A DNA stretch of 41,974 nucleotides from Spirochaetota bacterium. GTDB lineage: Bacteria; Spirochaetota; B62-G9; DRHN01. Shown here piece after piece: positions 2,775 through 6,697 of the stretch (its first letter is position 1; each line of letters starts with the position of its first letter). The stretch is taken from positions 73,172-115,145 of the forward strand of contig JAFGTF010000022.1 of NCBI GenBank assembly GCA_016934265.1, given 5' to 3'. A program made the position numbers and the translations under genes. The notes below the pieces were generated by a model, which worked only from the letters and a program-made list of their open reading frames with translations, searched no databases and was not told the origin of the DNA.

Positions 2775-2897
2775 GGCCTCTCCTCCCCCTGTTCTTGGAA
2801 ATATATAATATAACCACCCTCACAACCCTAAAAAAGGATTATCCTCGCGCTGTTGTTTTGCTCTATATTACTACTATCACTTTCGAAAAGCCGTGTT

Positions 2898-3989
2898 ATG
2901 ACGAGATCCACACGAATCAAGTTCCGTCTTCTCGCGCTGAGCAATGTGAGAAGTCTCGTTATGCTCAACGTGCTGTTTTTTATCCCCACCCTTCTTTTCT
3001 GTTACTCGCTCGTACGGATCGTTCCCGTAATGCTCTCCTATATCAATACGCTGAACGTCTCGGTGCTGAGCGCCGCCGCGGAGTATGACAAACTCGTCGT
3101 CGCGGTGATATCGCCCGCGGCCCGGCGGGAGGCGGCGGGCGGCCGTTCGGCACGGAGCGTCCTGCAGTCGGCGGGCACCGAAGAAAAATACGAGGACGGC
3201 AGGGAGCACGTGTACGTGTTCGCACGCAAGGATTTCAGAGGCGTCCGTTCGCATGTCTTCCGAAACGACGGCGAAGCGCTGCGAAGACGCGCGATCGGGA
3301 CGGCGGAAGTTCCGCTTTCGAACGAGCCGGCGGTCGTGAGGGACAAGGAGGGAAGAACGGTAGCGACGGTGAGGGTCGAGAGCATGAAACAGGGATCGGT
3401 CGAGGTGCTCTTTTACCGGGCCAAACCGCTTTTACCGACGGCACGGCCCCTGCTACATCTTTTATTACTCCTTACAGGCTGGACGGCCGTCTCCGGCGCG
3501 CTCGGCGGGATCAACGATTATACCCAGCGGGTCGTCTTTCACGAGCCGAAGGGTTTCAGGTACCTTCTTCACGCGGTTCGAAAGCATTTCGGCCGGTCGC
3601 TTTTAGTGTCCCTCTTCTTCAGCGTGACCATCGGCGCGGTCTGTGCCAATATCTACTTCTACATCTTCCTCGTTGCGAGCGACGTTTCCGTGTTCATCGC
3701 AGCCATAAACGTCTGGATGCTGCTCTTCTTCCTGCTCGTATTGTTCTGGGTATATCCGCTGCTCGTGCTGGACTCAGACGAGTCTGTCTGGCGGATCATG
3801 AAAAAGTCGCTCTTCGTGAGTTTCGACAACTTCACCTTTACCCTGCGGGGTATCGGTATACTGATCCTCATCCTGATTATTTCCTGCTTCACCCTCCTGC
3901 TGTTTCCGGGGATATCCTTCTTTTTCGGGTTCGTCAATACCGCGCTGAAAGAGGTGTCCTCCCGCTACTCCCGTCTCGACGTCGCGTGA
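2898..3989 (+). CDS. Polytopic membrane protein of unknown function
   Basis: A 363-residue protein that I do not assign to a family. It begins MTRSTRIKFRLLALSNVRSL and has a hydrophobic segment at about residues 21-45, then a polar extracytoplasmic-looking region of about 120 residues rich in Arg and Ala (res. 60-180). Next come a short hydrophobic stretch (LLHLLLLLTG) and three strong membrane segments towards the C-terminus, of the types SLLVSLFFSVTIGAV, WMLLFFLLVLFWVYP and ILILILIISCFTLLLF. The C-terminal half loosely recalls DUF624-like four-helix membrane proteins, but this is a guess. Upstream frame to 2853 is open, but no ribosome site supports it. It stands alone between the kinase gene (divergent) and the aromatic operon leader. 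Confidence 0.7.
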   Translation: MTRSTRIKFRLLALSNVRSLVMLNVLFFIPTLLFCYSLVRIVPVMLSYINTLNVSVLSAAAEYDKLVVAVISPAARREAAGGRSARSVLQSAGTEEKYEDGREHVYVFARKDFRGVRSHVFRNDGEALRRRAIGTAEVPLSNEPAVVRDKEGRTVATVRVESMKQGSVEVLFYRAKPLLPTARPLLHLLLLLTGWTAVSGALGGINDYTQRVVFHEPKGFRYLLHAVRKHFGRSLLVSLFFSVTIGAVCANIYFYIFLVASDVSVFIAAINVWMLLFFLLVLFWVYPLLVLDSDESVWRIMKKSLFVSFDNFTFTLRGIGILILILIISCFTLLLFPGISFFFGFVNTALKEVSSRYSRLDVA

Positions 3990-4142: not shown

Positions 4143-4171
4143 TTGACACCGCACAAAAGGGATGGTAAGTT
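4143..4171 (+). promoter_or_regulatory. Promoter of the aroF-tyrA leader (attenuator) transcript
   Basis: A consensus TTGACA (4143-4148), a 17-bp spacer and TAAGTT (4166-4171) preceded by TG-N, which is an extended -10. Transcription should begin near 4178, giving a leader of about 27 bases before the leader-peptide ATG at 4206 and about 145 bases to the terminator. Confidence 0.65.
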
Positions 4172-4205
4172 GACGGTATATATAAAAGAGAAGGGAAAAC
4201 AGTAT

Positions 4206-4271
4206 ATGTTCTGCAATAGGTCGATTTCGGAATGGACGGGTGTGTATTATTATCCGAAACTGTTACGATAG
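4206..4271 (+). CDS. Leader peptide with Trp and three consecutive Tyr codons (attenuation)
   Basis: A 21-codon open frame begins with ATG 4206 and ends with TAG 4269-4271. It reads Met-Phe-Cys-Asn at the start, has Trp at codon 10 and three consecutive TAT (Tyr) codons at 14-16, followed by Pro-Lys-Leu-Leu-Arg. An AAGGG-containing purine tract lies about 10 bases before the ATG. The stop codon is about 25 bases upstream of an intrinsic terminator (4294-4322), and the first structural genes are DAHP synthase and prephenate dehydrogenase, so tyrosine is an end product of the operon. This arrangement matches classical ribosome-mediated attenuation as in trp, his and pheA leaders. A ribosome stalled at the Tyr codons would leave 4272-4276 (TGCAG) free to pair with CTGCA in the terminator's left arm; a ribosome at the stop codon would cover it. 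The five-base antiterminator pairing is short and is an inference. Confidence 0.7.
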   Translation: MFCNRSISEWTGVYYYPKLLR

Positions 4272-4293
4272 TGCAGGACTCTTGCGCGATACA

Positions 4294-4322
4294 GGGCTGC
4301 AGGGTGCTGCAGCCCTTTTTTT
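4294..4322 (+). terminator. Intrinsic terminator acting as attenuator before aroF
   Basis: A perfect 9-bp stem, GGGCTGCAG (4294-4302) with CTGCAGCCC (4307-4315), closes a GGTG tetraloop and is followed directly by a run of seven T. It follows the Tyr-rich leader peptide and precedes aroF by about 190 bases with no other gene between, so it most likely controls read-through into aroF-tyrA. It is too far from the previous gene's stop (3989) to be simply that gene's terminator. Confidence 0.85.
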
Positions 4323-4488
4323 ATAGATAACAGGAAGTACGTGAAAGGGGAAACGGCAAGCCGGCAGCGGAATCAAAATCGTAAATCCGGTTATTACTGA
4401 TTCGAATCGGTTTCGGTTGTGTGCGCTGAGAAAAACGGAACTGTCGGCGTGAATCTGTATCGTTACGGCACACGGTATGGAAATACTG

Positions 4489-4494
4489 TATAAT
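4489..4494 (+). promoter_or_regulatory. Possible second, attenuator-independent -10 box for aroF
   Basis: A perfect TATAAT lies 20 bases before the aroF ATG, just ahead of the AAGGAG ribosome site (4503-4508). No good -35 is seen at 16-18 bp, so this is only a candidate. If real, it would supply a basal level of aroF-tyrA mRNA that bypasses the attenuator. Confidence 0.25.
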
Positions 4495-4514: not shown

Positions 4515-5564
4515 ATGGTAGTCGTTATGGAGCCCGGATCGGGCGAAGACAGGATACAGAACGTGATAACGCATCTCAAGGAGATGGGGTTCGACGTGCA
4601 CCGCTCCGACGGGGTGAACCACACGGTACTCGGCGCGGTCGGAGACAAGACCGACGTCGACATCCGCCAGCTCGAGGTCTTGGACGGGGTGCACGAGGTA
4701 GTACGGATCTCGGAGCCGTACAAGCTCGCCTCCCGTATGTTCCGGCACGAGGACACGGTGATCAGGATAGGGGACGTCACAATCGGCGGGGAGGAGGTGA
4801 TCGTGGCAGCCGGGCCGTGCGCGGTGGAGTCGAGAGAGCAGATCATGCGCATCGCGGCCTGTGTGAGGGAATCGGGCGCGAAGCTCCTTCGCGGGGGCGC
4901 GTTCAAGCCCCGCTCATCCCCCTACTCCTTCCAGGGGCTCGGAGAGCAGGGGCTTCGCTACCTCAGGGAGGCGGCGGACGAAAACGGACTGCTCGTGATC
5001 ACGGAGGTGACGGAGATCGGACAGATAGACCTCGTAACTGAGTATGCGGACATCCTCCAGGTGGGGGCGAGGAACATGCAGAACTTCATGCTCTTAAAGC
5101 AGCTCGGGACGAAGAAGAAACCGGTGTTCCTGAAGCGGGGGATGTCATCCACGATACGGGAGTGGCTCATGGCGTCCGAGTACATACTCTCGGGCGGCAA
5201 CAGGGAGGTGATACTCTGCGAGCGGGGGATCAGGACCTTCGAGAACTACACGAGGAATACGCTCGACATATCCGCGGTCCCGGTGATAAAGAAGCTCAGC
5301 CATCTCCCCGTCTTCACCGATCCCTCGCACGGCACGGGGATACGGAACAAGGTGATCCCAATGGCGCTGGCCAGCGTGGCGGCGGGTGCGGACGGTGTCA
5401 TCGTGGAGGTGCACCACGACCCGGATCACGCCAAGTCCGACGGAGCGCAGTCGCTCTACCCGGGGCAGTTCGCCGAGATGATGATGCAGCTTCGGGCGAT
5501 CGCCCGCGCGGTGCAGCGGAGGGTCGTCGATATCGCCGATAACGGGGAGGAAAAGCGGCCGTGA
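4515..5564 (+). CDS. aroF: 3-deoxy-7-phosphoheptulonate (DAHP) synthase, type I-beta with N-terminal regulatory domain
   Basis: A 349-residue enzyme that condenses phosphoenolpyruvate with erythrose 4-phosphate, the first step of the shikimate pathway. Residues about 1-70 form the ferredoxin-like (ACT-like) regulatory domain typical of the Thermotoga-type enzyme, in which it mediates tyrosine feedback inhibition. The barrel follows: AAGPCAVES (Cys102 is the metal ligand), KLLRGGAFKPRSSPYSFQG, LQVGARNMQNF, LPVFTDPSHGTG (His metal ligand) and VEVHHDP (Glu ligand). The start has an AAGGAG seven bases upstream. The stop codon overlaps the GTG of the next gene by four bases (GTGA), so the two are translationally coupled. 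A Tyr-codon leader and terminator lie upstream, so control is likely both enzymatic and transcriptional. Confidence 0.95.
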   Translation: MVVVMEPGSGEDRIQNVITHLKEMGFDVHRSDGVNHTVLGAVGDKTDVDIRQLEVLDGVHEVVRISEPYKLASRMFRHEDTVIRIGDVTIGGEEVIVAAGPCAVESREQIMRIAACVRESGAKLLRGGAFKPRSSPYSFQGLGEQGLRYLREAADENGLLVITEVTEIGQIDLVTEYADILQVGARNMQNFMLLKQLGTKKKPVFLKRGMSSTIREWLMASEYILSGGNREVILCERGIRTFENYTRNTLDISAVPVIKKLSHLPVFTDPSHGTGIRNKVIPMALASVAAGADGVIVEVHHDPDHAKSDGAQSLYPGQFAEMMMQLRAIARAVQRRVVDIADNGEEKRP

Positions 5565-6697
5565 AACGGAATACGGATGCAACGAACGTGAAGAATCCGC
5601 CGGATGCGAAGAATCCGCCGGATTCGGTCACCGTGGTCGGGCTCGGGCTGATGGGAGGCTCGGTCTCCCTCGCGTTGCGAAAAGAGGGAATACGGGTGGT
5701 GGGGGTGAGCGGCCCGCGGTCGCTGGAAAAAGCGAAGGCGCGAGGTGCGATAGACGAGGCCTTCGGCTATGACGAGCTGGAAACTGCGGTACGAAAGAGC
5801 GCCGTGGTGTTTCTCTGCACCCCGCTTCTTCTGATGGAGACGATGCTTCCACGGGCGCTCGACTGCGCTTCAGGTGAAACGATCGTTACCGACGTGGGGA
5901 GCACGAAATCGGGCATATGCGATATTGCCGAACGGCGGCACGACGGCAAAGCGGTTTTCATAGGAGGACACCCAATGGCGGGAAGCGAGAAGCGGGGCGT
6001 CGAGAACGCGGATCCGAATCTGTTCTACGACGCGGTATGGGTCCTCACTCCGACGCGGAGGACGCCGAAACATGCGACGAACGCGCTGTCGGCCCTCATC
6101 CTGAGCGTCGGCGCGAAGGTGATGCTCCTCGATCCGGTTTTACACGACCGGATCGCCGCACGGGTAAGCCACCTCCCGCAGCTTGTCGCGGTCCTTCTCG
6201 TAAACAGTCTCGCGCGGGAGGATTCCGACCTGTTCCGGAACCTGGCGGCCGGAGGATTTCGGGACATGACGAGAATCGCCTCGTCGAGCTACGATGTCTG
6301 GAGGGACATCCTTTCGACGAATTCGGCCCGGATAAGAGAGGAGCTTCGGGCGTTCGGCGCAGAGGTCTCGACGCTTTTGGGGAACATCGACGACGAAGAG
6401 TACCTAGAAGGCGTTTTTTCACGTGCGAATGAAGAGCGCATGCGCCTGCCGAGCTACTCCAAGGGGTTCGTCGCCCCGCTGTGCGACATCCGAGTCACGG
6501 TGCCGGACAGGCCCGGCGAGCTCGCCCGTATAACCGGCGTCATCTCCGCCTGCGGCATCAACATCAAGGACATCGAGATCGTAACGGTGCGTGAGGGGGA
6601 GGGAGGCGTGCTCAGGCTCGGATTCGAAACGAAAAAAGATGCCGAGCGATCCGTCGAACTCCTTCGCGGCGCAGGCTATGAAGTCAGGGTCCTGTAA
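5561..6697 (+). CDS. tyrA: Prephenate dehydrogenase with C-terminal ACT domain
   Basis: A 378-residue protein starting at GTG 5561 inside the aroF stop. It oxidatively decarboxylates prephenate to 4-hydroxyphenylpyruvate, the tyrosine branch. The NAD-binding loop GLGLMGGSVSLAL is at about residues 27-39, and the family signatures VTDVGSTKSGI and FIGGHPMAGSEKRG follow. SRVSHLPQLVAV-type residues (ARVSHLPQ) and GGFRDMTRIA are the helical-domain motifs. Residues about 305-378 are an ACT domain (DIRVTVPDRPGELARITGVI), which typically binds tyrosine for feedback. The first 22 residues are an unusual extension containing two copies of KNPPD encoded by an 18-bp tandem duplication; the true start could lie slightly downstream, but the overlap with aroF favours GTG 5561. 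Confidence 0.93.
   Translation: MKRNTDATNVKNPPDAKNPPDSVTVVGLGLMGGSVSLALRKEGIRVVGVSGPRSLEKAKARGAIDEAFGYDELETAVRKSAVVFLCTPLLLMETMLPRALDCASGETIVTDVGSTKSGICDIAERRHDGKAVFIGGHPMAGSEKRGVENADPNLFYDAVWVLTPTRRTPKHATNALSALILSVGAKVMLLDPVLHDRIAARVSHLPQLVAVLLVNSLAREDSDLFRNLAAGGFRDMTRIASSSYDVWRDILSTNSARIREELRAFGAEVSTLLGNIDDEEYLEGVFSRANEERMRLPSYSKGFVAPLCDIRVTVPDRPGELARITGVISACGINIKDIEIVTVREGEGGVLRLGFETKKDAERSVELLRGAGYEVRVL
5591..5626 (+). repeat. 18-bp tandem duplication in the tyrA 5' end
   Basis: Two copies of an 18-bp unit (AAGAATCCGCCGGATGCG at 5591-5608 and the same with one change at 5609-5626) lie within codons 11-22 of tyrA. They add the repeated peptide KNPPD ahead of the NAD-binding domain and keep the frame. 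Confidence 0.85.

Follow-up and report, generated by a model that had tools for sequence, protein, structure and literature searches.

A putative tyrosine-codon transcription attenuator precedes aroF-tyrA in an order of Spirochaetota

The aroF-tyrA operon of a Spirochaetota bacterium is preceded by an element that is very probably a ribosome-mediated transcription attenuator, one that would sense charged tRNA-Tyr and thereby control the operon. The element lies in a stretch of 41,974 nucleotides of contig JAFGTF010000022.1, referred to here as the window. The hallmarks of an attenuator are present, namely a promoter, a short and putatively translated open reading frame, codons for the product of the pathway, a terminator, an antiterminator, and a spacing between them. 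These parts, their conservation and spacing, and the capacity of the RNA to pair in relatives are described below, together with the mechanism that they suggest, the alternatives to it, and comparable leaders at other operons and in other lineages.

Architecture of the leader and the downstream operon

Positions 4143 to 4322 of the window hold, in this order, a promoter-like site, a 21-codon open reading frame, the motif TGCAG, and a terminator. The features of the region, all on the plus strand, are as follows.

4143 to 4171, plus strand: leader promoter, with TTGACA, a 17-nt spacer, and the extended -10 TG-g-TAAGTT.
4191 to 4195, plus strand: AAGGG, possibly the ribosome-binding site for the leader frame, weak, 10 nt 5' of the ATG and read from the sequence.
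4206 to 4271, plus strand: leader peptide reading frame, MFCNRSISEWTGVYYYPKLLR, stop codon TAG included; YYY leaders also occur in five relatives.
4208 to 4215, plus strand: strand 1 (GUUCUGCA), which would pair over 8 bp with 4272 to 4279 if the ribosome is absent.
4245 to 4253, plus strand: candidate regulatory codons TAT TAT TAT (Tyr 14 to 16), kept in all six leaders.
4272 to 4276, plus strand: strand 2, TGCAG, which adjoins the leader stop codon; CTGCAG in four of five relatives.
4293 to 4322, plus strand: intrinsic terminator, comprising strand 3 (AGGGCTGCAG), a loop, strand 4 (CTGCAGCCCT), and seven T.
4489 to 4494, plus strand: TATAAT, perhaps a weak second promoter from which transcription would escape the attenuator, with no good -35.
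4515 to 5564, plus strand: aroF, 3-deoxy-7-phosphoheptulonate (DAHP) synthase of the Bacillus subtilis type (PRK08673 subfamily), 500.7 bits (cut-off 335).
5561 to 6697, plus strand: tyrA, prephenate dehydrogenase, best match PRK06545.1-5 (E 1.1e-82), under the curated cut-off of that model.

The first-pass annotation of this DNA had described an extended -10 promoter and a 21-codon leader with Trp at codon 10, Tyr at codons 14 to 16, and a stop codon, and each of these is present. The -35 hexamer TTGACA (4143 to 4148) is separated by a 17-nt spacer from the extended -10 (TGG-TAAGTT, 4163 to 4171), and the leader runs from an ATG at 4206 to a TAG at 4269 to 4271. A scan with a simple consensus missed this promoter owing to its poor -10, TAAGTT; what supports it is the TG extension, a spacer of 17 nt, and the similar promoters of relatives, and TTGA[CT][AT] followed by 17 nt and a -10 is the top promoter-like match 5' of the leader in all six leader-bearing genomes. 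The window copy has a weak ribosome-binding site for its leader, and that of one relative (L002) is not clear-cut. As for the terminator, the annotation had proposed a 9-bp GC-rich stem and seven T; the T run is there (4316 to 4322), and the stem is one pair longer than claimed, with 10 pairs (4293 to 4302 with 4307 to 4316), 7 of them G-C, closing a loop of 4.

The genes downstream, which had been said to make tyrosine, are indeed a DAHP synthase of the B. subtilis type and a prephenate dehydrogenase. The start of tyrA overlaps the stop of aroF, and the two enzymes together commit carbon to tyrosine. About 190 nt separate the terminator from aroF in the window, versus about 20 to 45 nt in relatives. 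Upstream of the leader, positions 2853 to 3986 encode a putative membrane protein with no NCBIfam match, and the order's other genomes have a similar gene directly 5' of aroF.

Conservation within the order

Relatives were collected with the AroF protein as query against 60 related genomes, and the order is represented by eight genomes, the window's own included. The first-pass annotation had tied its reading to the recurrence of the Tyr run and terminator in related genomes, and a YYY leader followed by a terminator is found 5' of aroF in six of these eight. The two genomes of the order in which the element is absent belong to one genus (g5), and in one of them the upstream gene ends directly 5' of aroF.

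The YYY leaders of the five relatives read MIILRSSGIYYVYYYLKFPD, MIKSCGQIAGLTGYGYSYYYFKFII, MNFIGYYYYLKFIT, MRNEMVGAQSMLKGYYYVWGLQH, and MDQIVNIHYAYYYHCKLIL. Across the six genomes the peptides range from 14 to 25 residues and have little in common outside YYY; as judged from sequence, what is conserved is the Tyr codons, strand 2 next to the stop, and the terminator, not the amino-acid sequence of the leader. The spacing is likewise kept in all six genomes: the stop codon ends 18 to 21 nt past the last Tyr codon, and strand 2 begins at the stop codon or within 1 to 2 nt after it. A CTGCAG-like motif occurs three times, once as strand 2 after the leader stop and twice in the terminator arms as strands 3 and 4, so that the terminator of the relatives has the form CTGCAG-loop-CTGCAG, and compensatory changes lie outside this core. 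Strand 1 has no clear conservation among relatives, and its protector pairing with strand 2 (8 bp in the window) is clear in L003 and not evident in every genome.

Folding and statistical support

The folding z-score of 4178 to 4340 is -3.2. When a stall at the Tyr codons is simulated with strand 4 absent, the freed RNA folds into the helix between strands 2 and 3 (the 2:3 helix) in all five relatives, over 7 to 8 bp in four of them and with one mismatch in L002. The TGCAG:CTGCA pairing proposed at first pass is thus conserved and longer in relatives, whereas in the window it spans 5 bp only and is not the minimum-energy fold, the predicted free fold before strand 4 being another hairpin. The finished terminator is more stable than the 2:3 helix in every genome, and antitermination would therefore have to be kinetic, with the choice made during transcription. 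Known attenuators likewise choose their fold during transcription.

Chance is a poor source of such leaders. In dinucleotide shuffles a YYY short reading frame appeared in 5 of 3000 for the window and in 7 to 65 of 3000 for each relative (0.2 to 2% per region), and the real regions carry it in six of six; the product of the shuffle frequencies, 1.5e-14, is not a true joint probability because the six genomes are related. For the terminator, 97% of cells are paired, three pairs have compensatory changes, and the covariation score is reached by none of 500 shuffles. For the 2:3 antiterminator, 93% of cells are paired versus 17 to 52% when the strands are slid, and one compensatory pair outside the palindromic core changes from C-G to U-A in L007. 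The shuffle control (a) for this helix was not significant (100 to 112 of 500) because the palindromic core never varies. Statistical support for the 2:3 helix is accordingly limited, and its support comes mainly from the third CTGCAG, which is kept at a fixed place and is not needed by the terminator.

A covariance model (R1) was built from the six regions, and its matches to them, one site in each genome at E 1.6e-8 to 5.9e-13, arise by construction and carry E-values that are rough owing to a short calibration. What the search contributes is the uniqueness of these sites: they score 65 to 86 bits, the other matches score 33 to 39 bits and lie by unrelated genes, and no further convincing site was found over 393 sampled Spirochaetota genomes. 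Weak matches in ten genomes outside the order were, on inspection, plain terminators or unrelated stretches.

Proposed mechanism

The layout is that of the classical trp, phe, and his attenuation scheme, and from it we infer stalling, a kinetic choice of the antiterminator, and a response to tyrosine. RNA polymerase would start near 4178, and a ribosome would begin the leader. With ample Tyr-tRNA, this ribosome would reach the stop codon (4269 to 4271) and cover strand 2 (TGCAG); strands 3 and 4 would then form the terminator, and transcription would end near 4322. If tyrosine runs short, the ribosome would instead stall at Tyr codons 14 to 16, and strand 2, at least 18 nt past the last Tyr codon, would stay free to pair with strand 3 while strand 4 has yet to be transcribed. 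With strands 2 and 3 paired, the terminator would not form, and polymerase would run on into aroF-tyrA. The conserved spacing appears well suited to both states, as a stalled ribosome would free strand 2 and one that has reached the stop codon would mask it.

Alternative explanations

One alternative sees in the hairpin an ordinary terminator that serves the upstream membrane-protein gene and in the YYY frame a coincidence. Relatives do have the same gene upstream of aroF with a hairpin behind it, but YYY stands at a conserved distance 5' of the hairpin in six genomes, a promoter lies between the upstream gene and the leader, and the conserved strand 2 would be superfluous for a plain terminator; we regard this explanation as very improbable. 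An equally slim chance attaches to the terminator being governed by a riboswitch or a T-box, that is, by a ligand-binding or tRNA-binding RNA. Although T-boxes control tyrosine genes in other bacteria (PMC1262725), no Rfam family matches here at its gathering score, the T-box model and the amino-acid leader families (Trp, Phe, His, and others) included, and relaxed searches gave only chance-level hits (E 1.8 to 4.7). The first-pass statement that this is neither a T-box nor a known riboswitch agrees with that result. Furthermore, only YYY, strand 2, and the terminator are conserved in the leader sequence, and no aptamer-like conserved structure was seen upstream of the leader in the six genomes.

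A third possibility concerns the window copy alone, in which ancestral Tyr attenuation may be decaying or partly bypassed, with aroF here driven mainly from a promoter in the gap that follows the terminator and the leader contributing little. This copy has the lowest R1 score of the six (64.7 bits versus 76 to 86), its strand 2 is shortened to TGCAG, the long gap between terminator and aroF contains the TATAAT at 4489, and the absence of the element in genus g5 indicates that loss happens. Yet this copy retains intact its promoter, YYY, the core of strand 2, and a strong terminator of 10 bp that shows compensatory changes, and the second promoter has no good -35, so we consider this scenario unlikely, if less so than the other two. 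We therefore retain the tyrosine attenuator as the preferred reading, while the 5-pair 2:3 helix, the other free fold, and the spacer of about 190 nt with its TATAAT mean that the attenuator of the window may be less tight than that of its relatives or partly bypassed.

Codon identity at other operons of the order

A short reading frame with YWWWF or FWWWF was found upstream of trpE in all six trpE regions of the order (L156 to L161, where L160 is the window's own genome, G000:C19). The leader of the own genome contains ATGYGYWWWFRR. A terminator lies between leader and trpE in four of the six, the own genome included; of the other two, one has its sole hairpin at the predicted gene start, and none was detected in the other. 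These are apparent Trp attenuators. They share with the aroF-tyrA leader the lineage, the design, and the match of codons to product, and differ from it in their Trp codons and in a terminator of unrelated sequence.

No leaders were detected at hisG, tyrS, or ilvB in the order. The second DAHP synthase of these genomes, which belongs to the Phe branch and whose N-terminal fusion partner looks from its sequence like prephenate dehydratase, has no aromatic leader with a terminator. The presence of WWW at trpE and the absence of such leaders at the second DAHP synthase, hisG, tyrS, and ilvB suggest that codon identity follows the pathway: the leader codons appear to match the operon product, Tyr for aroF-tyrA and Trp for trpE. 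Both the trpE leaders and the leaderless second DAHP synthase favour the attenuator reading of the aroF-tyrA leader.

Aromatic leaders beyond the order

The scan was also extended to 110 regions upstream of aroF, 30 of them from spirochaetes and 80 from other genomes. An aromatic-rich short frame followed by a terminator occurs in 13 of these regions versus none of 550 mononucleotide-shuffled regions, a count that is too low, as the threshold missed the window's own leader. This distribution suggests that leader-peptide attenuation of DAHP synthase arose repeatedly. In two further spirochaete families (L024 and L030), Phe/Tyr-rich aroF leaders (RYFFYFYYFSFR; RYFYFWYFYFYKSRS) are followed by terminators, and aromatic-rich leaders with terminators likewise stand 5' of aroF in Clostridia (L074, L094, L097, and L098) and Calditrichota (L081).

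The low-G+C family f10 (L017, L018, L025, L026, L245, L246, L248, and L250) carries aroF leaders with aromatic runs and GV at their end, YAYYFFYYGV being one example. A small hairpin, for example GGCGTTTAAGACGCC (read in L017, L018, L025, and L026), holds their stop codon in its loop, and no strong terminator was found behind that hairpin in the f10 aroF leaders; this design differs from the classical attenuator. Finally, in other spirochaete families (L198, L220, and L225), a WW short frame and then a terminator precede trpE as candidate Trp attenuators.

Relation to known attenuators and significance

The E. coli pheL-pheA, trpL-trpEDCBA, and his attenuators share the layout of regulatory codons, strands 1 to 4, and terminator with the window leader, but they serve other amino acids and have no sequence relation to it (no Rfam match). 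The E. coli aroF-tyrA operon is known for repression by TyrR. Its attenuation was only hypothesised (Camakaris 1980, cited in PMC8632094). In Corynebacterium glutamicum, an actinobacterium, the aroR-aroF attenuator has a Phe-Tyr-Phe leader and responds to Phe rather than Tyr (Neshat et al. 2014, as summarised in PMC11802643). This system also combines an aromatic-codon leader, a DAHP synthase operon, and ribosome-mediated attenuation, whereas the window leader has Tyr codons and belongs to Spirochaetota. The uORFC-13-1 motif of Acholeplasma, an aroF attenuator with Phe codon(s) proposed from comparative analysis (PMC8632094), resembles the window in its promoter, leader frame, and terminator directly 5' of aroF, but it differs in sequence and phylum, and no Tyr run is reported for it. 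Leader peptides outside Proteobacteria and Actinobacteria have already been noted (Naville and Gautheret 2010, PMC2965389).

Reports of attenuation at aroF thus already exist for other phyla. Neither a tyrosine attenuator nor a spirochaete attenuator was found in the open-access literature searched, and both the Tyr specificity and the presence in Spirochaetota appear to be undescribed there. We give an even chance to a broader proposal, in which no leader-peptide attenuator dedicated to tyrosine has been described before this one; it would be ancestral to its order of Spirochaetota, which has a Trp attenuator on trpE and a Phe-branch DAHP synthase without one.

If this proposal is true, the DAHP synthase isoenzymes would be split by codon-specific attenuation instead of by repressors. 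Independently of that proposal, the element read as an attenuator places classical attenuation firmly in Spirochaetota, for which the literature searched holds no earlier report, and one genome offers a clean natural pair for the study of codon-specific control, with Tyr codons at aroF-tyrA and Trp codons at trpE. For the bacterium itself, the layout would let the cell make its tyrosine enzymes only under tyrosine shortage.
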